DNA of 64,000 nucleotides from Candidatus Paraburkholderia kirkii (GTDB lineage Bacteria; Pseudomonadota; Gammaproteobacteria; Burkholderiales; Burkholderiaceae). Positions 20,213-58,434 of this stretch are shown one piece after another (the first letter of the stretch is position 1; each line of letters opens with the position of its first letter). The translations under genes and the position numbers were made by a program. The notes beneath the pieces were generated by a model that saw nothing but the letters and a program-made list of their open reading frames with translations, was not told where the DNA came from and did no database searches. The stretch is from assembly GCA_001189345.1 (NCBI GenBank), contig LFKV01000012.1, positions 1 to 64,000 of the forward strand, in the 5' to 3' direction.

Positions 20213-20229
20213 GCGGGGCGATCGTGAGC

Positions 20230-26753: not shown

Positions 26754-27731
26754 TTACTTTCCCGCCGGTTGCGCCGCCGGATCTTCATACTGCGGCAGAC
26801 CCTGCGCCTTGCTCGAACTCGGCGAAGGCGCGCCCTTCGGTGCGTTTTCCTGAGGCGCGGGCGCCTTGCCGCTGGCGCCGCCTGCCGGCGAGGCCGCCGC
26901 GCCCGGATCCACGTAGGTCGGCAAGCCTTGCTCCGTGCTGCCGCCGCCGGTCGGGCCCGGCGCGCTCGCGCCTTCGGGCGCGGATGCGCCCTCGTCGCCG
27001 TAATCGGGCAGCGTGGCGCCGCCGCCGCCCGCCAGCAGATACTGGCGGCGCTGCGTGTACGCATCGCGCACGAAGGCGTATTTGTCGAGCGCGGCTTGCG
27101 AAAGCAGGTCTGTTGCGCCGATCAGGTCCGCGCGGGCGCTCACGAAGTTCAACCCGTACAGCGGCCAGCGGATCTCCGCTTCGGAATAGCTCACCGGATT
27201 CACGCGCCAGTCGACGGCCCACGTGGTCGCGTCGCGGAAGGAGCTCGAGCCGAGCAGCGGCAGCACGAGATACGGCCCCGACGGCACGCCGTAGTGTCCG
27301 AGCGTGAGACCGAAGTCCTGATGATGCTTCGGCAAGCCCGCCGGCGAGGCGATATCGATCAGGTCGCCTATGCCGAACACGGAATTCATCGCGATGCGCA
27401 TCAGATCCTGCGTCGCGTCGGTGATCTTCAACTGCAGCAGGTTGTTCGCGAAGTTGGAGAAATCGCCGAGGTTCGAGAAGAAGTTGCTGACGGCGGTACG
27501 GAACGGGCTCGGCGTGTAATCGACGTAGAACTGCGCGACGGGCTTCGCGACGTAGGTGTCGAGCGTGTCATTGAACGTGAAGATCGTGCGGTTCATCGGC
27601 TCGAGCGGATCTTTCGGATTGCGGTCCGGGCCGGTTGCGCAGTCCGCGGTCGCGAGCGCACCGGCGATCGCCAGGCTCAATCCCAATCTACGTACTGCGC
27701 AAGCGGCCAAAGCTGTCGATTCCGACTTCAT
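26754..27731 (-). CDS. mlaA: MlaA/VacJ-type outer-membrane protein with a defective lipobox
   Basis: 325 residues. MlaA lipoproteins sit in the outer membrane and return misplaced phospholipids to the Mla pathway. The core begins DPLEPMNRTIFTFND and includes FFSNLGDFSNFANNLLQ and GVPSGPYLVLPLLGSSSFRD. The C-terminal 90 residues are low-complexity, rich in G, A, P and S, with two related QGLPQYEDP/QGLPTYVDP repeats. The signal peptide should end in L-x-G-C, but here reads LATADC: aspartate replaces the residue before the lipidated cysteine (gac, one step from ggc). Signal peptidase II would probably not process it. It lies 21 bases downstream of hpnN and is probably co-transcribed. Confidence 0.88.
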   Translation of the reverse strand: MKSESTALAACAVRRLGLSLAIAGALATADCATGPDRNPKDPLEPMNRTIFTFNDTLDTYVAKPVAQFYVDYTPSPFRTAVSNFFSNLGDFSNFANNLLQLKITDATQDLMRIAMNSVFGIGDLIDIASPAGLPKHHQDFGLTLGHYGVPSGPYLVLPLLGSSSFRDATTWAVDWRVNPVSYSEAEIRWPLYGLNFVSARADLIGATDLLSQAALDKYAFVRDAYTQRRQYLLAGGGGATLPDYGDEGASAPEGASAPGPTGGGSTEQGLPTYVDPGAAASPAGGASGKAPAPQENAPKGAPSPSSSKAQGLPQYEDPAAQPAGK

Positions 27732-27752
27732 TCTTCAATTCCTCTAAGGTTG

Positions 27753-30345
27753 TCATGTCGTTGCGACGCGCGCAGCTTCGCCCTGTCCGTGGCGCGGCTT
27801 CCCCATCAGGACGGGCTGGAAGACCACGGCGCCGATCAGCGTGCAAAAGTCGAGCCTCACCCATGCCGTGATGTTCAGCGCGGCCACGACCGCGACCGCG
27901 TTCGGGAGCCTGTGGTTCTCGCATCACCCGGGCACGTCCAGCATGGGACGGCTGCTGTCGCTGTCGCTCTTTTGCAGCCGCGTCTGGCCGGACCGCCACG
28001 CCATCACGAAATAGATCTTGAACGCCACGCCGACGCACAGCATGAGCGGCAACGCGATGATGTTCGCGAAGTTGAGCGGGGCATCCTGAAGACGACGCAC
28101 AGCTCCAGCGTCACGATCGCGGAAACGAACAACGGTACCAAAGTTCTCATGACATCGCCGAAACGGCGCAGCGCGATCCACAGGAGCGCCGAGATCGCGA
28201 CGAGCGAGTACAGCGCGGCCTGCTGGAACGCCTTGATGACGGTCTCGGCCGAATGGCGCACGGAGATCGGCCCGCCGATCGCGTCGGGTTCCGCCTTCTG
28301 CACGGCGTCGGCGAAACGGGCGAGCAACGCGTCGTCGTTGGGATCGACGTCGGGCGGCGTTTTCGGCGAAACGTCGACGAGCGCCTGGCCCTTCGGCGTC
28401 ACCCAGGTCTCGACCATCTGCGGCGGCAGCGTCGCGCGCGTGATCTCGGTCGGCGTGAGGAGCGCGCGCAATTGCGCGAGCGCGAGCCGCAGCGGCTCGG
28501 CCATCGCGTGCTCGGCGCGCTCGCGCGCGGCGGCGTCGGCTTGCGCCAGCTTCGCGAGCGTCTGCGACAGATGCTTGGCTTCCTTCTCGCCCGCGCCGGG
28601 GTGCTCGTCGGCGGCGAGCGAAAGCTGGCTCGACACGCGCTTGAGCGCCGCGACGCGCACTTCATCCGTCACGGGCGACGCGGTCTGCTGATCGAGCGCG
28701 GGCAGCAACTGATCGGCGGCGGCCTTGACGAGCTCGAGCTTCTTCGGCTGATCGGCGGGGATGAGCGAGGTGAGCATGGTCGCGCGCTCCACTTCCGGCA
28801 GCGCTTGCAGTTTCGCCGCGATGCGGTCCGCCGCCGCGAGCGACGGCGCGAGCACGGCGACGTCGTCCACCGCGCCCTCGGGCGAATCCTTGAGCGAGGT
28901 GAGCGCCATCATCGACTCGGTGTGCGGGTCCTTCAGATGCAGCGGATTGAAGTCGAAGCGCAACTGGAAGAGCAGCGGCAGCGCGCTGATCACGACCGCA
29001 AGCGTGCCGATCAGCACGGGCTTGCGGTGCCGGTCGAGGAATTCGTCGACCGGCGCGAGCACCGGAAAGCCCGGCGAATGCGCTTCGCCCGGCGGCGCGA
29101 ACACCTTGATGAGCGCCGGCAGCAGCGTCATGTTGGTCACGTATGCGACGAACATGCCGACGCCCGCGATCAGCCCCAGCTCGGACACGCCGCGATACGC
29201 GGTCGGCAGGAACGAGAAGAAGCTCGCGGCGGTCGCGGTGGCCGCGAGCGTGAGCGACACGTCGAGCCGCTTGTGCTTGTAGCGCTCTTCGCGATACTTC
29301 ACGCCGAACTGAATGCCGAAGTCCATGCCGAGGCCGACGAACAGCACCATGAACGCGACCGGGATCATGTTGAGCGCGTGGACCATCATGAGGCCGAGCA
29401 CGGCGGTGATCGCGAGCCCGACGAACAGCGTGACGAACACCGCGAAGGTCATGCGCTTCGAGCGCAGCGCAACCCACAGGATCATCAGCACGACGAGGAA
29501 CGTCAGCGCGCCGTTGAGCGTGGCGCCGTCCTGCACGGACGCGAACTCCTCGTCGGCGAGCGGCTGCGTGTCGGTCAGATGCAGCGTCGCGCCGTACTTC
29601 TTGTCGATGCCGATCTCCGCGGCCTTCGCGCGAATCTCCTCCGAGGTGCCCGCCGCCGCCTTCAGCGCATTGAAGTTCAGCTCCGGCAGCACGGTGACGA
29701 AGGCGCGCCCGGGGGCATCGCTCTTCGACGAATCCGCGAGGTCGCGCCACGAGAACGCGGCGGGCCGGTTCGCCAGCACCTCGTCCAGCACGGCCGCGCT
29801 CTTGTTGAGCAGGCCGGCCATCTGGCCGAGATTGACCTGACCCGTCAGCAACGGAAGATTGAGCGTGGTGTCGAGCATCTGCGCGAGACCGGTGAGCGTG
29901 GGGTCGTGCGCGAGCGTGTTGATGAGCGGGCGCGCGGAAACGAGCTGCTTCGTGATCTGCTCGACCTTGTCCGTCGGCAGATAGAGCAGCCGTTGTGCTC
30001 GAAGAACGCGCCGCCCGTGGGCTGCGATACCGACTTGAAGCGGTCCGGCTCTTTCGCGAGCGCGGCGGCGAGATCGTTCGCGGCGGCATCGGCGAACTCC
30101 TGCACGGGCGCCTCGACGACGATCAGCAGCGTTGCGCCGCGCTGCGGAAACGCCGCGTCGATGGCATTGCTGCGCGCGGCCCACTCGGGCTCGGTCTCGA
30201 TCAGCTGGCTGACGTCGGTGCTGATCCTGAAGTGCTGGACGACATAAATCGTGCTCAGCACGCCGAGCAGCAGCGAAATGGCGATAATCCACGCCGGGCG
30301 GCGGATGGAGAGTGTGACGAAACGGGTAATGTTGGACGTCAGCAT
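27753..30345 (-). pseudogene. hpnN: Hopanoid RND transporter HpnN, frameshifted and internally inverted
   Basis: Inner-membrane RND/MMPL-superfamily exporter that moves hopanoids to the outer membrane, about 865 residues if repaired. The first helix is [20 protein letters not shown]. The second membrane block holds [20 protein letters not shown] with its conserved intramembrane aspartate. One C is missing near 29995 (HNG then [11 protein letters not shown]), and a second shift lies near 28090 before [14 protein letters not shown]. Near the end the frame reads [14 protein letters not shown] and stops, because bases 27842-27976 are inverted. Read on the opposite strand the segment restores [18 protein letters not shown] and [18 protein letters not shown], and beyond it [17 protein letters not shown] leads to a stop at 27753-27755. 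Confidence 0.9.
27842..27976. repeat. 135-bp inverted segment flanked by 8-bp inverted repeats in hpnN
   Basis: tgcaaaag at 27842-27849 and its reverse complement cttttgca at 27969-27976 bound a segment whose hpnN coding sense lies on the plus strand, while the gene on both sides is on the minus strand. Flipping it between the repeats restores one continuous reading frame through both joins. Confidence 0.9.
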
Positions 30346-30432: not shown

Positions 30433-31223
30433 TCATGAAGCGATACTGCGTCCGTCCGCGATCATGACAGCGCCCGTCACGCGGCCCTTCGCGCTGGTCA
30501 ATTCCCTGGCGCCCGTGCGTGTATGAATTGGGATGCCGAGATCGAGCGCGGATTTGGCGAGACGTGCGGCGAGCGCATTGCCGCTCGTGATCTGCACGCC
30601 GCGTTTATAGAGCGCGAGTTCCTTGAAATGACTTGCCAGCCGCCTGACGACATACCAGGCGGACGCAAGCGATCGCGTCGCGTTGAAGAAATGCTTGAGG
30701 TCGGCGCTCGACGAATTGAACATCATGCCGATGAACGTAATCGTCTTGAGCGGCGGACGCAGGCGCGCGATATCCTGGCCCAGCCCGCGCGCATCGAATG
30801 GCCTGGCGACGACGGAACGCCCCACATCGACGCCGCCCGGGGCGTTGGGATGGTAGCGGGATAGAGCGTCGGCAGAAACTCGACCGAGGTCTCGCGCTCG
30901 AAGAAATCGATCATGCGCGGGCCGGCGTCGAGAAAAGCATCGACGGATGCCGCGTCGTACATTGCGCCGGTCTCGCTGCGCAGATATTCGACCGCGGCCT
31001 CGTGCGTATCCTGAACGCCCGCTTCCCTTGCATGGCGATTGCCCGGAATCCACAACACGCCGCCCGAGAATGCGGTGGTGCCGCCGAAATATTCTTCCTT
31101 CTCGACGACGATCACGTCGAGCCCGTGCTTCTTCGCTGTAATGGCCGTGGAGAGGCCGCCGGCGCCCGAGCCGATCACGAGCACGTCGCAAGCGAGATCG
31201 GACGACCGCGTTACGGTAGTCAT
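30433..31223 (-). pseudogene. FAD-dependent 3-ketosteroid-dehydrogenase-like protein, frameshifted and truncated
   Basis: The N-terminus carries a complete FAD-binding motif (DVLVIGSGAGGLSTAITAKK) followed by EKEEYFGGTTAFSGGVLWIPG, typical of the fumarate-reductase/3-ketosteroid dehydrogenase family. A shift near 30820 leads to PLKTITFIGMMFNSSSADL and RGVQITSGNALAARLAKSA. The frame ends after about 260 residues, whereas the family has about 550-580, so the C-terminal half including the second part of the flavin domain is gone. Only 87 bases separate it from hpnN, which suggests a deletion. It heads a group with the SDR gene on the same strand and the AraC gene opposite. Confidence 0.82.
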
Positions 31224-36865: not shown

Positions 36866-37979
36866 TTGCGCTGCGTTATTGAATTAGCACCCTGTCTGTG
36901 TTCAGATACAGGTCATGGGTCAAAATGAACCTGACAGATATCGAACGTGAGCAACTGTTGTCGGCGGCGCGCAGCCGAACGGTGCGTGCGGCGGACGTGC
37001 GACGCGCAAAGTTGATCCTGATGCTCGAGGACGGCGAATCGCGCGACAGTATCATGCGCACACTGGGTTGCGATTCGCGCTTCATCGCACGCTGGTCGGG
37101 GCGCTTCCTCAGCGAGCGACTAGCCGGCATGTACGCCCGGCACCGCGGGCGGGCGCCTACGCAGCCACCGGCCAAACTGGAAGCGCGGGTGCTCAAGTGC
37201 ACCCTCAAGCACAAACCCGCCGACGGTTCGACACACTGGAGTAGCTACAAGCTCGCAGCAGAACTCGGCGACGTATCGGTCTCGGCCGTGCAGCGCATCT
37301 GGCGCAAGCACGGCATCAAGCCGCAGCAGTTGGAGCGGCACATGGTCTCCAACGACCCGGACTTCGAGACCAAGGCAGCCGACGTGATCGGGCTGTACCT
37401 GAACCCGCCGGCGCACGCAGCGGTGTTCTGCGTGGACGAGAAGACCGCGATCCAGGCACTCGATCGCAAGGACCGTATGCTGCCGCTGTCGCCCGGGCGC
37501 GCCGAGAGTCACGGCTTCGAGTACAAGCGCAACGGCACGCTCAGCCTGTTCGCGGCGTTCAATACTGCCACCGGCGAGGTGCTGGGCAAGACGGTGGCGC
37601 GCCACACCAGCGAGCAGTTCGTGGCCTTCCTGACCGACGTCGTCGCCAGCCAGCCCAAACGCCGGGAAATCCACGCGATCTGCGACAACGTCAGCAGCCA
37701 TAAGACGCAGCGGGTTGCCGACTTCCTTGATGCGCAGCGCAACGTGCACCTGCACTTCACGCCGACCTACTCGTCGTGGCTCAACCAGGTGGAGAACTGG
37801 TTCTCGCGCATTCAGCGTGAAGTGATCGCTCGCGGCATCTTCACTTCGGTGAAGGATTGGGATCGCAAACTGATGCCGATACATCCGCGAACACAACAAG
37901 AACCCGAAACCGATCAAGTGGAAATATGACGATCCTTCGCGCCGGATTCGACCAGTGCCAATTCAATGACGCAATGGAA
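36866..37979 (+). mobile_element. IS630-family insertion sequence, copy 1
   Basis: 1114 bp, bounded on both sides by the TA dinucleotide (36864-36865 and 37980-37981) that IS630 elements duplicate. Imperfect terminal inverted repeats of about 28 bp can be aligned (left ttgcgctgcgttattgaatt, right complement with the same attgaatt core). Copy 2 at 52105-53218 is in the same orientation, 15,239 bp away, and differs by one visible base at the left end. The right end sits five bases from the waaA stop codon. Confidence 0.9.
36925..37969 (+). CDS. IS630-family transposase, copy 1, with C-terminal frameshift
   Basis: An N-terminal helix-turn-helix (DSIMRTLGCDSRFIARWSGR) is followed by an RNase-H-like DDE domain with the acidic residues in FCVDEKTAIQAL, ICDNVSSHK and the third in SWLNQVENWFSRIQRE. 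The start at 36925 (MNLTDIEREQ) is preferred over an upstream GTG. Near 37873 one extra C shifts the frame: the family end (YIREHNKNPKPIKWKYDDPS) lies in the next frame and stops at 37967-37969, while the actual frame ends at 37929. All three catalytic residues precede the shift. The same shift occurs in copy 2. Confidence 0.9.
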
Positions 37980-37986
37980 TAGCCAG

Positions 37987-49412: not shown

Positions 49413-50108
49413 TTACTTCAGATGCTTGCCGAAGAACGCGGCGGTGCGGCCATTGGCGAGTTGCGCCGCCGCCGCGTCGTAGTGGGCACCCTGGTTGCGC
49501 GCGAACGCATGATGGCAGCCGGGATACGTGAACGCCTCGATGTTCGCATGGCCTTTCACCGCGGCGAGCACGCGATTGCGCGCGTCCGCGGTAATGAACT
49601 CGTCCTCTTCCGCGAGATGAAGCATGAGCGGAATTTTGATCTTCGGCAATTCGTCCAGATGCTGATCGGTACCGCCGCCGTAGTACGAAACCAAAGCATC
49701 GACATCGGTGCGGGCCGCCGTCAGAAACGACAGCAATCCGCCGAGGCAGAAGCCGACCGAACCGATCTTGCCCTTCACCTGCGAGAGCCCGCGCGCGAAG
49801 CCGATGGTCGCCGCGATGTCCTCGACGCCCGTATTCACGTCGAACGCATTGTAATACTTCAAGGCCTGCTGCCATTCGGCCTCGGTGCGGTCGGTAAGGT
49901 TGACGTTCGGCTCCAGTCGCCAGAACAGGTCGGGACAGAGCACGACGTAGCCCTGGCGCGCGTACTCGTCGCAGGTCTCGCGCATGTCGCCGTTGATGCC
50001 GAATATCTCCTGGATGACGACCACCGCCGGCGCGGGCGTTTGCGCCGGGTAGGCGACGTAGGCGTCGAAGTCGCCGTCGAGCGTCGAAATGCTGAGCATG
50101 TCGGACAC
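49413..50108 (-). CDS. Dienelactone hydrolase family protein
   Basis: 231-residue cytosolic alpha/beta hydrolase. The nucleophile is cysteine in SVGFCLGGLLSF, with an acid in LAEEDEFI and histidine in YPGCHHAFARN; the N-terminal VVVIQEIFGINGDMRE is characteristic. I chose the GTG at 50108 because aggag lies 5-6 bases upstream; the frame extends to 50159. The family opens dienelactones in chloroaromatic breakdown or acts on other esters. Intact. Confidence 0.9.
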   Translation of the reverse strand: MSDMLSISTLDGDFDAYVAYPAQTPAPAVVVIQEIFGINGDMRETCDEYARQGYVVLCPDLFWRLEPNVNLTDRTEAEWQQALKYYNAFDVNTGVEDIAATIGFARGLSQVKGKIGSVGFCLGGLLSFLTAARTDVDALVSYYGGGTDQHLDELPKIKIPLMLHLAEEDEFITADARNRVLAAVKGHANIEAFTYPGCHHAFARNQGAHYDAAAAQLANGRTAAFFGKHLK

Positions 50109-50155
50109 GGGAATCTCCTGGGTGAGGTTGAGTGATGGAGGCGGAACGGGCGACG

Positions 50156-50620
50156 TCATGCGGCAGGTTTGCTTCTGCCCAGGTACTGCTTGAGGAGGTC
50201 GGCCAACTCCTTGATGAGTGTCTGCCAGAGGGTCAGGCCGTCTTTGTCATCCTCCTGGTCGCCTGTCTCCCGGAAAACCAGGCGAACGATGGGAAGCATG
50301 GACACGGCGACCAGTGAAGCGATGACGACAAGCGGCGTGCAGAGCAAGACCGCCTGAGGCTGAGCGGCTTGAAGCGAGTCACCGAATACGCGCAAACCGA
50401 ACGATCGAATCCACATGGCGAACATGACAACCAGCGTCGCGATCAGGCCCGCAATCCCGAAGAATGCATATTGCCGGAATTTGCGGAATTGCTGGCGATC
50501 AGCAATATATTCTTCGATCAAAGACAGACGCTTGATCGACCACTCCTCGTTCGACACTCTGGTTTGACACGCAGACAATTCTTCGCGCCGATGTTTCTCA
50601 TTTCCCGACCCGACATTCAT
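50156..50620 (-). CDS. Two-helix membrane protein linked to ImmA/IrrE peptidase
   Basis: 154 residues of unknown function. The start ATG at 50620 overlaps the stop of the metallopeptidase (ATGA). About 50 hydrophilic residues (EEWSIKRLSLIEEYIADRQQ) are followed by two hydrophobic segments (AFFGIAGLIATLVVMFAMWI and VLLCTPLVVIASLVAVSML) and a basic/acidic tail ending LKQYLGRSKPAA. The arrangement suggests a membrane anchor or effector coupled to the peptidase. The stretch is visibly less GC-rich than the flanks, hinting at horizontal transfer. I do not recognise a family. Because of a frameshift upstream it is also read as a fusion with the peptidase. Confidence 0.6.
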   Translation of the reverse strand: MNVGSGNEKHRREELSACQTRVSNEEWSIKRLSLIEEYIADRQQFRKFRQYAFFGIAGLIATLVVMFAMWIRSFGLRVFGDSLQAAQPQAVLLCTPLVVIASLVAVSMLPIVRLVFRETGDQEDDKDGLTLWQTLIKELADLLKQYLGRSKPAA

Positions 50621-51086
50621 GGTGCCCATCCTAATTTCTTGAGCTTGAACTCCAGAGCAATTTCGGTGACTCCGAACATTTCTCTCAATTTCTCGAAGCT
50701 GCCGATATTCCTCTTCCCCCAGGAGTATTTCGACGGCAAAGCCGGGAATCAGCAACTCGAGCGCAAAGACGTTGGCTTGCCTTTCGATGGTATCGAGTTG
50801 CACTGTTGCAAATTCTTCCTCGGTGTCGACAAATCTGTCGCCATGATCAAGCACGTAATGCCCCAATTCGTGGGCGATGGTGAAGCGCTGACGCAACTGT
50901 GGTTCGCTCGGGTTCGTGTAGATATGCGGCCTGCCTTCTACGAATTCGAAGCGCCCGAAAGCGGGTCCCAGTCTTGGGTCCTGTTCGACTGTTACATCCG
51001 CGGCGCGCGCGATGACCGCTGGATCGACGGGTAGGAATCCGTCCCCAATGCTTCGAAAGCATATACCGCGCAGCCATCTTCGGCAT
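50617..51086 (-). pseudogene. ImmA/IrrE family metallopeptidase, two frameshifts
   Basis: When the frames are joined the protein starts MPKMAARYMLSKHWG, continues DGFLPVDPAVIARAADVTV, carries the zinc site FTIAHELGHYVLDHG (H-E-x-x-H) with ERQANVFALELLIP, and ends REMFGVTEIALEFKLKKLG at a stop at 50617-50619. Shifts lie near 51043 and 50685. The family cleaves helix-turn-helix repressors, as in ImmR/ImmA of ICEBs1 and in DdrO/IrrE, but no such repressor is encoded next to it here. The four-base overlap with the membrane-protein gene implies one transcript. The lower GC content suggests acquired DNA. Confidence 0.75.
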
Positions 51087-51179
51087 GATTGATTGCCCTC
51101 CATCAGCAAGTTCTTCCTCGCAACGGATACTTCGATATCCTTTGCATTCTCGCGATGGAGTCTATCATCGAGGATGATG

Positions 51180-51440
51180 CGTCTCTACGCACCTCGTCCG
51201 AATGGCCAGCAGATCCGCATTCATCTTGTCCGCCTCGACGGTGCACATCCCTGCACACCACCCGGAGAGACCTTCAATGCCGCATTCTTCATGATCTTCA
51301 CGGCCTTCCGCGCCGCGCTGATCGGCACGATCTGGTCGTCGTCGCCGTGCAGGAAGAGCGTCGGCACGTCGAACTTCGACCGACGCCTTGCCCTGGAGCC
51401 TGAAACGGCGCGAGGCGTGGCTATCCGAAGCGGCAGGAGC
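51180..51440 (-). pseudogene. Alpha/beta hydrolase C-terminal remnant
   Basis: The minus strand encodes FDVPTLFLHGDDDQIVPISA and ARKAVKIMKNAALKVSPG, the typical last third of a non-haem chloroperoxidase/esterase (G-D-D-D acid site). A shift near 51255 then gives MCTVEADKMNADLLA, the expected end. The N-terminal two thirds with the nucleophile are missing. A deletion or insertion has left only a fragment. Confidence 0.7.
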
Positions 51441-51550
51441 TTATTCGATACGCGAAAAAAGACGCGCGCGCCAGCATTGAATCGCATGGCGCCGGAATAG
51501 AGACCCGTACAGGAAGGGGAAAGAGCCGCCGGCGTTGCTCGAAAAAAGGC

Positions 51551-52103
51551 TCACGCCGGCGCGGCGCGCGGAATCGGCCTCGTCACCTCGCGCGCGACGG
51601 CGAGATAGCGTGCGGCCGTATCGGCGAGCGTGAGACCGCCGAGCGGTCGGTGCGAGCGCGGCTCCGACAGCGCGAGCACGAGCGCATCGGCGTAGGCGTT
51701 GGTGTCGTCCGGATCGCACAGGTGCACGCCGGCGAAATCGGCGGCGAAGCTGAACGGCCGGATGGTGCTCGCCACCACCGGCATGCCCGAGGCCAGCGCC
51801 TCCAGAAACGCGATGCTGTGCCCTTCCGAGCGCGACGGCATGGCGAACACGCTCGATGCGAACAGCAGCTCCGCGACGTCCGTGCGCGGCCCTTGCAGGC
51901 TCACGCACCCGGAGAGACCGAGCTTCTCGACGAGATCGCCGACCGCCGCGTGATACGCCGGATCCTCGATCACGCCGCACAGCAGCAGGCGCGCATCGGG
52001 CACTTTCTCGACGACCTGCCGGAACGCATACACCGTCGACAGCTGATTCTCTTCACCGACGTATACCGGCCGATCTGCACGATCTGCGCCCCGTCCGGCG
52101 CCT
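51551..52103 (-). pseudogene. Glycosyltransferase (GT4) 3' fragment cut by IS630 copy 2
   Basis: The C-terminal GT-B donor domain: IGRYTSVK, then after a shift near 52045 QLSTVYAFRQVVEKVPDARL, SVFAMPSRSEGHSIAFLEAL and ASGMPVVAST. The coding sense is interrupted at 52104 by the left end of the second IS630 copy. The sequence on the other side of the element (53221 onward) does not encode the missing N-terminal half, so material was lost after insertion. The enzyme would have belonged to the neighbouring surface-glycan block. Confidence 0.82.
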
Positions 52104-52104
52104 A

Positions 52105-53218
52105 TTGCACTGCGTTATTGAATTAGCACCCTGTCTGTGTTCAGATACAGGTCATGGGTCAAAATGAACCTGACAGATATCGAACGTGAGCAACTGTTGT
52201 CGGCGGCGCGCAGCCGAACGGTGCGTGCGGCGGACGTGCGACGCGCAAAGTTGATCCTGATGCTCGAGGACGGCGAATCGCGCGACAGTATCATGCGCAC
52301 ACTGGGTTGCGATTCGCGCTTCATCGCACGCTGGTCGGGGCGCTTCCTCAGCGAGCGACTAGCCGGCATGTACGCCCGGCACCGCGGGCGGGCGCCTACG
52401 CAGCCACCGGCCAAACTGGAAGCGCGGGTGCTCAAGTGCACCCTCAAGCACAAACCCGCCGACGGTTCGACACACTGGAGTAGCTACAAGCTCGCAGCAG
52501 AACTCGGCGACGTATCGGTCTCGGCCGTGCAGCGCATCTGGCGCAAGCACGGCATCAAGCCGCAGCAGTTGGAGCGGCACATGGTCTCCAACGACCCGGA
52601 CTTCGAGACCAAGGCAGCCGACGTGATCGGGCTGTACCTGAACCCGCCGGCGCACGCAGCGGTGTTCTGCGTGGACGAGAAGACCGCGATCCAGGCACTC
52701 GATCGCAAGGACCGTATGCTGCCGCTGTCGCCCGGGCGCGCCGAGAGTCACGGCTTCGAGTACAAGCGCAACGGCACGCTCAGCCTGTTCGCGGCGTTCA
52801 ATACTGCCACCGGCGAGGTGCTGGGCAAGACGGTGGCGCGCCACACCAGCGAGCAGTTCGTGGCCTTCCTGACCGACGTCGTCGCCAGCCAGCCCAAACG
52901 CCGGGAAATCCACGCGATCTGCGACAACGTCAGCAGCCATAAGACGCAGCGGGTTGCCGACTTCCTTGATGCGCAGCGCAACGTGCACCTGCACTTCACG
53001 CCGACCTACTCGTCGTGGCTCAACCAGGTGGAGAACTGGTTCTCGCGCATTCAGCGTGAAGTGATCGCTCGCGGCATCTTCACTTCGGTGAAGGATTGGG
53101 ATCGCAAACTGATGCCGATACATCCGCGAACACAACAAGAACCCGAAACCGATCAAGTGGAAATATGACGATCCTTCGCGCCGGATTCGACCAGTGCCAA
53201 TTCAATGACGCAATGGAA
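52105..53218 (+). mobile_element. IS630-family insertion sequence, copy 2
   Basis: 1114 bp with TA on both sides (52103-52104, 53219-53220). Same length, orientation and ends as copy 1; the encoded proteins are identical. It interrupts a glycosyltransferase gene. As direct repeats the two copies could recombine and delete the 14 kb of envelope genes between them. Confidence 0.92.
52164..53208 (+). CDS. IS630-family transposase, copy 2, with C-terminal frameshift
   Basis: Identical in protein sequence to the copy-1 transposase, including the one-base insertion near 53112 that moves the family C-terminus into another frame (natural stop 53206-53208, actual stop 53168). The three acidic catalytic positions are upstream of the shift. 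Because both copies share the lesion, it either predates transposition or does not prevent it. Confidence 0.9.
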
Positions 53219-53220
53219 TA

Positions 53221-53530
53221 GCATCACGCAAGCAGCGTGAAGTAGTGAAGTAACTTGGTGGTCCGCTGAAGGATTCAGCATCTCGTCAAAGACGATGCCG
53301 CAGTTCCGGCGATAATACGCGCCGAAACCCACCCACAAACACGAAAAGCCTGCATGAGCATTCACTCATGCAGGCTTTTGGATCTTGCCAACCCTCATCG
53401 AACGGTGCGCATCCGAACGTGCGCGAATCCGCGAGCTTTCACGCCACCTGCCGCGAAACTGCGACCCGGTCGAATTTGGGCCGCGATGCCGATACTGTCT
53501 TGACGGACGCGGGCAGAGTCCCGCGGTCGA
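53221..53530. other. Non-coding stretch between IS630 copy 2 and rpsU
   Basis: 310 bases with no supported gene. It contains the strong hairpin at 53344-53379, which serves rpsU, and otherwise low-complexity spacer after the IS end. Confidence 0.5.
53344..53379. terminator. Strong bidirectional terminator downstream of rpsU
   Basis: aaaagcctgcatgag and ctcatgcaggctttt form a 15-bp perfect stem with a six-base loop. The A and T tracts are at the stem ends, so it can terminate on either strand. It lies about 150 bases beyond the rpsU stop. Confidence 0.85.
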
Positions 53531-53743
53531 TCAATAAAACTTCTTCGGCAGTTGCGCGCGACGGATCTGCTTGCGCAGGCGAGCGACAGCAGCAGCTTTC
53601 TTGCGCTTGCGCTCGGTCGTCGGCTTTTCGTAAGCCATGCGCGACTTGAGTTCTTGAATCAGGCCCGTGCGTTCGACGGTACGGCGAAAACGACGCATGG
53701 CGACGTCGAAAGGCTCGTTCTCTTTCAGCAGTACTTTAGTCAT
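53531..53743 (-). CDS. rpsU: 30S ribosomal protein S21
   Basis: 70-residue basic protein of the small subunit platform near the 3' end of 16S rRNA. The whole family sequence is visible, from [19 protein letters not shown] through [19 protein letters not shown] to [16 protein letters not shown]. Intact in an otherwise damaged stretch. The frame is open upstream into the broken ferredoxin, which reflects that gene's lost stop, not a fusion. Confidence 0.96.
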
Positions 53744-53949
53744 TGAAATCTCGGTCGATCTGGCCCTGCCAGAATTTGGGGCAAAGCGCAATTGTACTCT
53801 TTTTGAGAGCCGCACTGCACGCTCTTTGCAGAAAAACGTGCGTATGCGGGCTCGGGATTCAAATCGTAGGTCGTTGATTCGAGACGACAATCCCCAAATA
53901 CCCGGGTCAGAAGCCGCGCGAGCGCGCGGGCCGGGGCGCCGGCTCGGCC

Positions 53950-54238
53950 CGCGAGCCTCCGGCTGGTCGATCGTCACATCTGATTGCGCGAGCGCGACGC
54001 ACGGCAGGATCCAGCCTTCGGCCTTTTCCTCCGCGTGAGGCCCGGCCACTCGACGCGATACGCAATATCGCCGTCGACGAGACGGCACATGCATGCGCGG
54101 CAGGTGCCGTTGCGGCACGACCTGCAGCGACAGACCCGCCTGCAGCGCGGCTTCGAGCAGCGACGCGCCGTCTTTCACCGCGACGAAGTATCCGCCCGGC
54201 TCGACGACCATCGCGAAGGCGCGTGCCTCGTCCGTCAC
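53950..54238 (-). pseudogene. 2Fe-2S ferredoxin, cluster region out of frame
   Basis: The start is a GTG at 54238, overlapping the yigZ stop. The N-terminus ([31 protein letters not shown]) and C-terminus ([27 protein letters not shown]) are in one frame. The middle, with the cluster ligands [19 protein letters not shown], is in another frame between about 54118 and 54030. Two opposite shifts thus leave a continuous frame without the cysteines that bind the cluster. The normal stop after IDQPEAR is also absent and the frame runs toward rpsU. Confidence 0.8.
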
Positions 54239-54808
54239 GCGCGCACCTCGATGCCCGCACGCCCGTTGGTGAGATCGCGCAATTCCGCGGCGGCTGGCTC
54301 GCGCGCGGCGGCGGCCATGCGCACGACGAGGCGCACCGTCGTCCCGTACTCGCTTTGCACGAGCTCGGCCTCGTGCTGCTCGATCCAGCGGCGCACGCGC
54401 GCCTCGTCAGCGTAATCGATTTCGATGCCGATCAGCCCGCGCTCGGCCAGCTGCATCGCGCTCGCGATCGCGTCCGTGTACGCGCGCACGAGCCCGCCCG
54501 CGCCCAGCTTGATTCCGCCGTAATACCGGACGACCGTGGCCAGCACGCCGTCGACTTCGTGATGCCGCAGCACTTCGAGGATCGGCCGGCCGGCCGTGCC
54601 GGACGGTTCGCCGTCGTCAGGCATGCCCGACTGGCCGCCCGCGAGCAGCGCCCAGCAGACGTGCGTCGCGCCCGGATGTTCGGCGCGCAGGCGCTCGAGT
54701 TCCCGCATGGCGGCGTCGCGGTCCGGAATGGGGATCGCAAGCGATGAAACGGCTCTTGCGCACGTCGATTTCGGCGCTGACGGGAGAGGCGAGGGTATAA
54801 GTCGGCAA
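54235..54808 (-). pseudogene. yigZ: YigZ/IMPACT family protein, N-terminal frameshift
   Basis: The first segment LPTYTLASPVSAEIDVRKSR starts at a probable TTG (54808) and reaches FIAC. A shift near 54739 then leads to PIPDRDAAMRELERLRAEHP and the conserved core GGQSGMPDDGEPSGTAGRPI and VVRYYGGIKLGAGGLVRAYT. The C-terminal domain ends at 54235. Members are conserved cytosolic proteins linked to ribosomes and translation control; their exact role is unclear. The stop overlaps the ferredoxin start. Confidence 0.82.
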
Positions 54809-54885
54809 GGCTGGGACCGCGCGAGATGCAAATGTCGAATCCGAATCTTCGCGTTTAAGCGCGGGGGCGCATCCGGAAACGGCAA

Positions 54886-55425
54886 TCACGCGGCGACGTC
54901 CGACGATGCATCGAGCGCGCGCTGCATCAGCACGGTATCGACCCATCGGCCGTGCTTGAAGCCGACATCGCGCAGCACGCCGACATGCTCGAAGCCGAGC
55001 CGCGCATGCAGCGCGATCGATCCGGCGTTGCCGCTGTTGCCGATCACCGCGATCATCTGCCGCCACGGCCCGCGCCCGCACCGTTCGATGAGCGCCGTCA
55101 GCAGCGCGAGGCCGATGCCGCGCCCGCCCATGCCGTTGGCGACATAGACCGAATCCTCGATCGTATGACGGTAGGCGGAACGCGGCCGGTACGGCGACGC
55201 ATACGCATAGCCCGCCACGGCGCCGTCGAGCTCCGCGACGAGATACGGCAGGCCCGCCGCCGCGATGGCCGCGTGCCGCGCGCGCAGGTCGTCGGCGGAA
55301 GGCGCGATTTCCTCGAACGTCGCGAGCGCGTTTTCGACGTAATGCGAATAGATGCGCGCGATGGCGTCGAAGTCGCCGGTTGCGGCATCGCGGACGAGCG
55401 AGCGGGCGGTATTGTGTGGGGCCAT
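54886..55425 (-). CDS. GNAT N-acetyltransferase (phosphinothricin acetyltransferase-like)
   Basis: 179 residues, cytosolic. The GNAT fold shows IARIYSHYVENALATFEEI near the start, the acetyl-CoA-binding loop VANGMGGRGIGLALLTALIE (R/Q-x-x-G-x-G/A pattern as GGRGIG), and the C-terminal ALHARLGFEHVGVLRDVGFK with the family G-F-x-x-x-G. The family acetylates the amino group of phosphinothricin or methionine sulfoximine/sulfone. The start at 55425 (MAPHNTARSL) was chosen because the domain begins there. Intact. Confidence 0.9.
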   Translation of the reverse strand: MAPHNTARSLVRDAATGDFDAIARIYSHYVENALATFEEIAPSADDLRARHAAIAAAGLPYLVAELDGAVAGYAYASPYRPRSAYRHTIEDSVYVANGMGGRGIGLALLTALIERCGRGPWRQMIAVIGNSGNAGSIALHARLGFEHVGVLRDVGFKHGRWVDTVLMQRALDASSDVAA

Positions 55426-55598
55426 GTCGACGATCCGGCAGGAAGAAAACGTAAATTCCGAGGCGTCGATTTTCGCACGGCGCACCAGCGGCAAAAAAAG
55501 GGCCGGCGGGCCGTGCGGAAGCCCACCAAAGGGGCGAGTTTTCGGACAAAGAAATCGTTGAACCGGGGAAGGCGCGCCCCCTACACTTAGAGACGGTT

Positions 55599-56416
55599 TC
55601 ATAAAGGCTGTTGAGATTGCCGAAGAGTGTTCCAGCAGATCAAGCAACAACCGAGTTTGAGGAACGCTTCATGAATGTCCGCACGACGTTCGAAGCGAGT
55701 ACGTAGACGGCGGAAGTTATGCAACCAGGCATGTGTACGTTCGACGACCCAACGGACTTTCCCAAGGCCGCTACCGTGCGGGTGACCGCGCCGCGCGATG
55801 CTGGTGGGAATGTTGCGCGCGTGAAGGAGGCACCGGTACTTGTCATGATCGTAACCGCGGTCGGCATAAACACAGCCAGGGCGACTCAGCGGCCGGCCGC
55901 GCACGCCGCCAATCGGTACGATGGCCTCGATCAACGGGATCAGTTGGGTGACGTCGTGACGATTGGCGCCGGTCAGGATTGCCGCGATCGGCGTACCGTT
56001 GGCGTCGGTGGTGACGTGGTGCTTGGAACCGGGTCGTGCTCGGTCGGTGGGGTTCGGGCCAGTTTTTCGCCCGCCCCAACCGCACGAATCGACGATGAGT
56101 CGACGACGACGCGGGAGAAGTCGATCTTCCCGGCCGCTCGTAGTTTCGCCAGCAGCAGTGCGTGCAGTCGATCCCACACGCCGGCTTGCTGCCAATCGCG
56201 CAGCCTGCGCCAGCAACTGACGCCAGAGCCACATCCCATCTCCGCTGGCAGATCTCGCCACCGGATGCCGGTCTTCAGCACGAACAAGATGCCGGTCAGC
56301 GCAGCCCGATCCGGTACCGGCTTGCGGCCCGGATACTTGAAGCGGCGCGGCTTCGCTGGTGGTAGCAGTGGCTCGATCAGTGCCCACAGTTCGTCGTCGA
56401 TGATTGGTTTGCCCAT
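55599..56416 (-). CDS. IS5-family transposase made by -1 frameshifting (OrfA/OrfB)
   Basis: OrfA (from 56416, MGKPIIDDELWALIEPLLPP) has the N-terminal region DRAALTGILFVLKTGIRWRD and the first DDE aspartate in FSRVVVDSSSIRAV. OrfB follows in the -1 frame from the cgaaaaact stretch near 56052 with GSKHHVTTDANGTPIAAILT, the second aspartate in YADRGYDHDKYR and the glutamate in WVVERTHAWLHNFRRLRTRF. Such A-run frameshifting is normal for this group, so the element may be active. Position 55599 is the OrfB stop. Confidence 0.88.
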
Positions 56417-56465
56417 CTCCTCGATCCTGTTGTCACAACGATCGAGGTTAACAGGTTGCGTTACA

Positions 56466-56503
56466 GGTTAACAGCCCCTAAGACGGGTTAACAGCCCCTA
56501 AGA
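56466..56503. repeat. Two direct copies of an 18-bp unit at a 20-bp period beside the IS5 end
   Basis: ggttaacagcccctaaga at 56466-56483 and 56486-56503. They probably represent a duplicated IS terminus or the junction of two nested elements. Confidence 0.75.
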
Positions 56504-57205
56504 GATCTTTTTGAAACTACTTCTTAGTGCCCCTTCATACGTCGCAAACCAGAAAGCTCCCTTCGAATTAACGGCGGACGCGGCGCCCATGCTGTGACGT
56601 TCGCCGGGCCGCTCGACCACCGGCGTTTCACCGCGCGGCGCCCACGTCCTGCCATGCACCGAGTCAGCACGGAAGCCCGATTCGTCCCAGAAAAAGATGT
56701 CCGCCTTCTGCTCACGAGCCCGCCTGGCAATGTTCGGATAGGTGTCTCGCTGCCAACGCTCGATCGCTTCCGGATCACGCTGGTAAGCACGCTGCAGCGG
56801 CTTTTGCGGCGTCAGGTGCAGACGGGCGAGCATCGCACCGATCGAAGCCAGACTTAACGTGACGTCGAATCTCTGTCGTACCAGCTCACGGACCAGGTTG
56901 CGCGTCCACAAGCCAAAATCAAACCCGTACTGTATTGGATTCTTGCCATTAACCCAACGCATTACCCGCTGCTCCTGCGTCGCAGTAAGCGTACGTGGGC
57001 GACCTGTGCCCTTGGTCGATCGCAGCGCTCGCACACCATGACCACGGCCTCGCGCCTGTGCCCTGATCTTGTACGCCCACGAGCGATGCATCCCAAACGA
57101 CGCGGCAACATCATTCGGATGCTCGCCTTCAGCCATACGCTGAACTGCAAGGATACGCATCTCTTCGAGCGTGTTGTGAGCCAGACTCCGGCCATCTCGT
57201 TTCAT
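56498..57205 (-). pseudogene. Second IS630-type transposase, 3' truncated
   Basis: The start MKRDGRSLAHNTLEEMRILA leads to a helix-turn-helix (HPNDVAASFGMHRSWAYKI) and a DDE domain with its first acidic residue in FFWDESGFRADSVHGRTWAP. The frame ends after GAFWFATYEGALRSSFKK, about 100 residues short, so the second aspartate and the catalytic glutamate are missing. The break coincides with the IS5 element's end. It belongs to a different branch from the 1114-bp IS630 pair. Confidence 0.85.
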
Positions 57206-57396
57206 GGGCGATGCTCCCAATAGCTATCGCTCAAGCATAGACTAGCTGTCCGCAAAATTCACGACTTATGAGTAAAGCCCCGCGCAAACGATTTGTGTAA
57301 TGAATACCTTCGTAAGCCTCCGAAGCCCCGCCCGGCAACGCTTCCGTTTCGCGCGTATCCTTTTCAGTCCGTTCCTCTCGCGCATTCGGAGCACAC

Positions 57397-57610
57397 ATAC
57401 AGACACGCAGCATCGGCACATCGGATCTGAAAGTCGCGCCGCTCGTCTTCGGCGGCAACGTGTTCGGCTGGACCGCCGACGAGCGCACATCGTTCTCGAT
57501 CCTCGACGCGTTCGTCGATCACGGCCTCGACTTCATCGACACCGCGGACGTCTATTCCGCCTGGGTCAAAGGCCACCAGGGCGGCGAATCGGAGGACGAT
57601 CATCGGCAAG
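57397..57610 (+). pseudogene. Aldo-keto reductase N-terminal fragment with ATA in place of start
   Basis: About 65 residues of an aldo-keto reductase: QTRSIGTSDLKVAPLVFGG, NVFGWTADERTSFSILDAF and the catalytic-aspartate segment DHGLDFIDTADVYSAW, then GHQGGESE. The expected ATG (relatives read M-x-TR-x-IG) is ATA at 57397-57399, preceded at the right distance by ggag. After residue 63 the frame shifts (TIIGKRLK lies in another frame), and the rest of the gene is absent. It runs in frame into a DUF3108 protein. Confidence 0.8.
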
Positions 57611-58434
57611 CGGCTCAAGGAAAGCAGCAAGCGGCCTCCGGCGCCGCGCAGGCATCGGCCGCCGCGGCTCCGCCGGCATCGCACCCGGCCGCCGCGTCGG
57701 GCGACAAGCTCAGCGTTCCGCCCACCGGCGAACTACGCTATGATACGCTCGTGAACGGCATGGTGAATCAGACCGGCACGATCCACTGGACCAACGACGG
57801 CCAGCATTATGAAATGGTCGTATCGATTCCGTTGCCTTTCGTCGGTCCGTATGTGTATTCGAGCAAGGGCCATATCGACGGATTCGGCATCGCGCCGGAG
57901 CAGTACTCGGAGCAGCGCGGCCGCCGCGCCGCCGACGTCGCCATCTTCAATCGGGAAACGAAGCAGATCGTCTACACCAAGACGCCGCAATCCCAGCCGC
58001 TCGCCGACGGCGCGCAGGACCGCTTCAGCGTCGTCATGCAGCTGGCGAGCCTCGTGCGCGGCGCGCCGGACCGCTACAAGCCTGGCGTGACGCGGCAGTT
58101 CAGCGTCGCGGACAACGACAGCAGCGAAATCTGGCCGATCGAAACCGTCGGCGACGAAACCGTGCAGGCGCGCGACGGCTTCACGAGCGCGCGGCATTTC
58201 ACGCGACTGCCGCGCCGCGAAGGCGACAGGCGCAAGCTCGACATCTGGCTCGCGCCGTCGCTCGGCTGGCTGCCCGTGCGAATTCTGCAAACCGAGCCGA
58301 ACGGAATGCAAATCGAACTGCTGTGGGCGGGCAAGCTCGCGCCGCCCGTTGCGACCGGCCAGGGCGCGGCCACGGGCACGCAAGATGCGCCTGAGGAATC
58401 CGCGCCCGCCGCGCCACAGCCGGACAAACCGTAA
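57605..58434 (+). pseudogene. DUF3108 domain protein, 5' end replaced by aldo-keto reductase remnant
   Basis: A complete DUF3108 domain (PTGELRYDTLVNGMVNQTGT, PLPFVGPYVYSSKGHIDGFG, ENGLRPARFTEQR-like EQYSEQRGRRAADVAIF, WLAPSLGWLPVRILQTEPNG) follows a low-complexity Q/A/P-rich linker. The family is periplasmic and has an N-terminal signal peptide and anchor, which are missing here. Instead the open frame continues upstream into the aldo-keto reductase fragment, giving a chimeric frame of over 320 codons. A deletion between two genes is the simplest cause. The protein probably no longer reaches the periplasm. Confidence 0.8.

Follow-up and report, generated by a model that had tools for sequence, protein, structure and literature searches.

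Introduction

In Saccharomyces cerevisiae the coding gene REG2 underwent an event in which an imperfect inverted repeat was homogenised to a perfect one and the spacer was inverted in the same lineage, leaving a non-reciprocal footprint (Abraham and Hazkani-Covo 2021, PMC8604942). According to the accessible parts of that paper, the arm grew from 5 to 16 bp around a 5-bp spacer and five amino acids were replaced. The ten spacer inversions described there for yeast had spacers of 2 to 5 bp and occurred only with arms of more than 9 bp. In 9/10 cases the arms were already perfect, which makes joint homogenisation and inversion the rarer form. In Escherichia coli, quasipalindrome mutations arise when the polymerase switches template and thereby perfects an imperfect inverted repeat; in the reporter systems, as far as the available text of PMC7202029 goes, the arm is corrected by an intramolecular switch. 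That template switching turns imperfect repeats perfect is also stated in PMC8755829.

The excerpted part of the latter paper deals with human/chimpanzee micro-inversions of 17-33 bp, which are clean and have their edges on short inverted repeats. In 34 of them the repeats still show mismatches or small gaps, and for such cases break-induced replication was preferred. The survival and the shortness of imperfect repeats were used to favour break repair, and a short ancestral match was held against a template switch with two jumps. Bacterial invertons are a further class of segments flipped between inverted repeats, defined in the portion of PMC11892184 used here by repeats of 10-40 nt that are recognised by an invertase. 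A limited literature search yielded few relevant papers on micro-inversions, template switching and intragenic invertons, and we claim no absence beyond them.

Here we analyse a small inversion within hpnN, the gene of a hopanoid RND/MMPL transporter, in a Caballeronia genome. Most probably it is a fixed micro-inversion that arose by one replication error, a template switch between imperfect inverted repeats, in a decaying gene.

Results

The genome has 3,914,712 bp in 48 contigs and is 97.34% complete. The window, i.e. the whole stretch of 64,000 nucleotides that was analysed, is located in contig C12. Among the named relatives represented in the 30 loci of the region, Caballeronia ptereochthonis LMG 29326 (L038; also G061) was the closest, with an HpnN identity of 91% in the best segment. 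The block collinear with this species around the inversion measures 10.4 kb. The features of the locus are compiled in Table 1.

Table 1. Features of the hpnN locus in window coordinates; lesions are relative to C. ptereochthonis
Feature	Position	Strand	Remarks
hpnN pseudogene (hopanoid RND/MMPL transporter)	27731..30345	-	tblastn frames; broken by indels and inversion
Inverted hpnN segment	27842..27976 (135 bp)	- (coding sense now plus)	approximately codons 803-848 of the 886-codon hpnN of C. ptereochthonis
Inverted-repeat arm TGCAAAAG	27842..27849	+	in hpnN direction the 3' arm CTTTTGCA, identical in C. ptereochthonis
Inverted-repeat arm CTTTTGCA	27969..27976	+	in hpnN direction the 5' arm TGCAAAAG
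1-bp deletion	29985..29992	-	frame break near codon 119
33-bp in-frame deletion	29250..29254	-	alignment
2-bp insertion	28076..28081	-	frame break upstream of inversion
11-bp deletion	27788..27792	-	downstream of inversion

The preliminary description held that a segment of hpnN had been inverted between 8-bp inverted repeats and that flipping it restores the reading frame through both junctions. These points were borne out. The plus strand of the segment encodes the 44 missing residues of HpnN, and a flip in silico produced one frame through both junctions. BLAST against C. ptereochthonis gave a single opposite-strand match of 95.6% identity, 135 bp in length, ungapped and ending exactly at the two breakpoints 27842 and 27976, i.e. 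the spacer was inverted at unchanged length. A forced same-strand alignment of the segment reached 53% identity. The ends are the perfect 8-bp inverted repeats TGCAAAAG and CTTTTGCA, 119 bp apart. The further claim that hpnN is continuous on both sides held locally but failed over the length of the gene, which has other indels about 100 bp and 2 kb upstream and about 50 bp downstream.

The comparison with hpnN of relatives, which had been suggested as a check, covered 58 genomes of the genus including the own genome. Matches were obtained in 55/57 others, the exceptions being G003 and G035. Two genomes, G008 and G076, matched in the flank alone, while segment and flank shared a contig in 53 (54 contigs). 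In these 53/57 other genomes the segment was present in coding orientation, which is opposite to that of the window on 54/54 comparable contigs. Thus the inversion is derived and, within this sample, private to the genome under study. The small inversion is most likely real and fixed. An own-genome DNA search revealed one real hpnN match besides three matches of 40-73 bp at 75-85% identity, and a second, working copy of hpnN was accordingly dismissed.

At the ends of the segment the relatives differ from the window. In the direction of hpnN the arms of C. ptereochthonis read TGCTACAG ... CTTTTGCA, those of the window with the segment turned back TGCAAAAG ... CTTTTGCA. The 5' arm of the window has TGC in common with the old 5' arm, and its AAAAG is an inverted copy of the 3' arm. 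Among 56 relative loci, which were drawn from two overlapping collections and are not all independent, the 5' arm was TGCTACAG in 25, C. ptereochthonis being one of them, and TGCAAAAG in none; a perfect pair of arms occurred in 0/56. Arm complementarity in these loci was 6/8 in 17, 5 in 10, 4 in 17, 3 in 9 and 2 in 3, compared to 8/8 in the window. At segment positions 4, 6, 65 and 117 the window has substitutions that set it apart from each of the four relatives compared. Two of these, positions 4 and 6, coincide with the only two mismatches between the arms, and at each the base now agrees with the other arm.

A conservative flip of the C. ptereochthonis sequence predicts a 3' junction of ...TCGACTGTAGCA, whereas the window reads ...TCGACTTTTGCA; equally, the cut-and-flip prediction for this junction is ...GACTGTAGCA versus ...GACTTTTGCA seen in the window. 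Thus each end now carries the 3' arm, and the 5' arm has been lost in part. The arm change and the inversion are both private to this lineage in the sample. Perfect 8-bp inverted repeats at a spacing of 80-160 bp are common: the window has 345 such 8-mer seed pairs, of which 17 fall within hpnN. Because they are so plentiful by chance, the repeats alone prove little; their exact placement at both breakpoints does matter. Judged from the arms of the relatives, the 8-bp repeats would not have been the pre-existing ends of a switch. An arm homogenised together with an inverted spacer reads as the footprint of a template switch, not of a conservative flip by a recombinase.

The state of the gene was assessed by tblastn, which located hpnN in two minus-strand frames, one of them with 5 stops, plus the inverted piece on the plus strand; there was no open reading frame. 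The C. ptereochthonis orthologue passes the HpnN models NF052374 (1360.8 bits, cut-off 1100) and TIGR03480 (1030.6 bits, cut-off 751.85). With the lesions in Table 1, hpnN is broken whichever orientation the segment takes. The dN/dS of hpnN versus C. ptereochthonis was 0.26, compared to 0.13-0.19 for four other species; this supports relaxed selection weakly, as divergence is lowest in the window pair (dS of 0.12 versus 0.22-0.28).

The neighbouring genes are affected as well. Between window positions 20224 and 26110 the gene of a GGDEF diguanylate cyclase, hpnD and shc are split between frames, while their orthologues in C. ptereochthonis are intact. In hpnG the frame is broken near the start, where a later start might serve; hpnE, an MlaA-like gene and a thioesterase-like domain remain open. 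The hopanoid pathway looks lost. Over 50,649 bp aligned with C. ptereochthonis (27780-28000 omitted) we counted 91 deletions (630 bp) and 55 insertions (194 bp). These indels of many sizes look like genome decay rather than sequencing slips, although 62/146 are single-base.

A scan of 58,488 aligned bp of the window for matches of at least 20 bp and at least 80% identity disclosed this inversion alone. Stretches of two other contigs, with 19,926 and 11,316 aligned bp, contained no such inversion. The scanned stretches (58.5 kb of the window and 31.2 kb elsewhere) represent about 2% of the genome. Six opposite-strand rows from five distinct places of 26-35 bp in the two other contigs were discarded as hairpin-like, since they also had a same-strand match of 92.9-100%.

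Larger rearrangements were seen in the surroundings. At 30446-30448, some 100 bp upstream of where hpnN starts, collinearity jumps from contig C35 to C49 in C. ptereochthonis, from C4 to C3 in G001 and from C45 to C72 in G062, and no sequence is inserted at the joint. This is a lineage-specific rearrangement, which may have removed the hpnN promoter, too. A repeat of about 1.1 kb exists in at least 3 copies near the edges of rearranged blocks (approximately 36878-37983 and 52092-53223 of the window, 9295-10414 of L099). It resembles a stretch of contig C15 of G061 and is possibly an insertion sequence. The stretch at 50000-57641 is a patchwork matching at least 4 C. ptereochthonis contigs (C57, C107, C106, C45), which we take as a sign of heavy rearrangement. 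Elsewhere in the genome, contigs C11, C16, C18, C22 and C45 contain five equal-scoring open reading frames of 251 aa for PF00239 serine recombinases, perhaps a multicopy mobile element.

Discussion

The preliminary description had offered two origins for the inversion, a fixed replication or recombination error or an invertible switch. The former is supported as regards a replication error: as expected of template switching, the arms match at 6/8 positions in the nearest relatives and at 8/8 in the lineage with the inversion. The switch has to be given up. We propose that during copying of hpnN the nascent strand quit its template within one arm of the imperfect repeat (TGCTACAG ... CTTTTGCA, 6/8 complementary) and would then have annealed to the partner arm of the opposite strand. 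The spacer of about 119 bp and part of the arm would have been copied in reverse until, in the second arm, the nascent strand resumed synthesis on its own template. Each junction has some freedom of position, namely 3 shared bp (TGC) at one end and 2 shared bp (CT) at the other. With a single arm as the template for both ends, the product would have two perfect 8-bp arms, with the old TAC of the 5' arm lost and the length kept. Starting from the ends in C. ptereochthonis, both arms seen in the window are reproduced by switch points that retain 0-3 bases (TGC) of the old 5' arm and 6-8 of the old 3' arm. A strand switch would be the cause, arm change and inversion would go back to a single event, and fixation would have occurred by drift under weak or no selection.

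Some properties of the locus speak against a template switch. The spacer of 119 bp is far above the 2-5 bp of yeast and the 17-33 bp of human/chimpanzee, and the ancestral match is short, i.e. 6/8 with a longest perfect run of 3 bp. The segment folds no better than shuffled sequences (z of -0.81; 41/200 shuffles as good), so no strong hairpin explains the jump, and a hairpin as the trigger was rejected. C. ptereochthonis has an internal CCCATGC/GCATGGG pair. When the reasoning of PMC8755829 is applied as far as its accessible text gives it, the survival of imperfect repeats as a test places the case on the side of template switching, and the short match is awkward for it.

A conservative inversion appears unlikely. 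In this case the segment would have been excised and religated, or else turned round through illegitimate recombination or break repair at the short imperfect repeats, and two point mutations, later or earlier, would have made the arms perfect by chance. The short ancestral match agrees with the model of microhomology-mediated break-induced replication that the available part of PMC8755829 presents for micro-inversions with short imperfect repeats. Against this, two independent substitutions would be needed at the sole two mismatched sites of the arms, each to the matching base, and two of the four changes restricted to this lineage are these very sites. Perfect arms were obtained by random substitution in 471/2,000,000 simulations with four substitutions and in 946/2,000,000 with six.

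We consider it quite improbable that the inversion is an artefact of assembly or amplification that is absent from the living genome. The genome is represented by a single assembly of 48 contigs, and chimeras are known to form at short inverted repeats during amplification. Yet a chimera would require two precise junctions in addition to homogenisation of an arm, and the inversion is the only one in 58,488, 19,926 and 11,316 aligned bp. Word sizes of assemblers far exceed 8 bp, so misassembly driven by these repeats is unlikely.

Finally, a phase-variable intragenic switch for on/off control of the hopanoid transporter is hardly credible. The flip restores the frame locally, the arms are perfect inverted repeats and, as in invertons, the segment between them is found flipped. 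But a flip would leave other frame-breaking lesions of hpnN in place, one of them near codon 119, and the gene is broken both ways, hpnD and shc are broken and hpnG is so near its start, the arms measure 8 bp instead of the 10-40 in the definition quoted from PMC11892184, they are perfect in 0/56 relative loci, a single orientation prevails on 54/54 contigs of relatives, and, in a search of the own genome for PF00239 and PF00589 recombinases, contig C12 was free of PF00239 matches while the PF00589 match nearest to the inversion, at C12:66171-66551, was 38 kb away. Recombinases, orientation throughout the genus and conservation of the arms were all checked, and none was in favour of an exporter switch.

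With a template switch as the preferred origin, the hpnN inversion belongs to a known kind of event whose copying footprint is unusually legible here, in a pseudogene. It is like REG2, as described in the portions of PMC8604942 at hand, in that an imperfect repeat in a coding gene was perfected and, in the same lineage, the spacer was turned round. It differs in occurring in a bacterium with a spacer of 119 bp, an arm that went from 6/8 to 8/8 and a gene that is also broken by indels. With the quasipalindrome mutations of E. coli it shares the perfected repeat, but here the whole 119-bp spacer was inverted, which would require a switch between strands instead of the intramolecular one in the PMC7202029 text. 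Like the human/chimpanzee micro-inversions it is small and clean and has its edges on short inverted repeats, yet its repeats were homogenised while 34 of those in the part of PMC8755829 considered retain mismatches or small gaps. More speculatively, and with considerable doubt, bacterial replication might invert more than 100 bp in one step via a strand switch between arms that share 3 and 2 bp at the junctions; in shrinking genomes such events might kill genes recurrently and be annotated merely as truncated genes.

The locus is a clean natural example, polarised by near relatives, in which an origin by template switch can be told from a recombinase flip by the sequence alone. The repeats that apparently caused the inversion are partly its product. 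Hence caution is called for before short perfect inverted repeats at an inversion are taken as evidence of a switch. The region is also a record of hopanoid gene decay in a Caballeronia whose genome is small.
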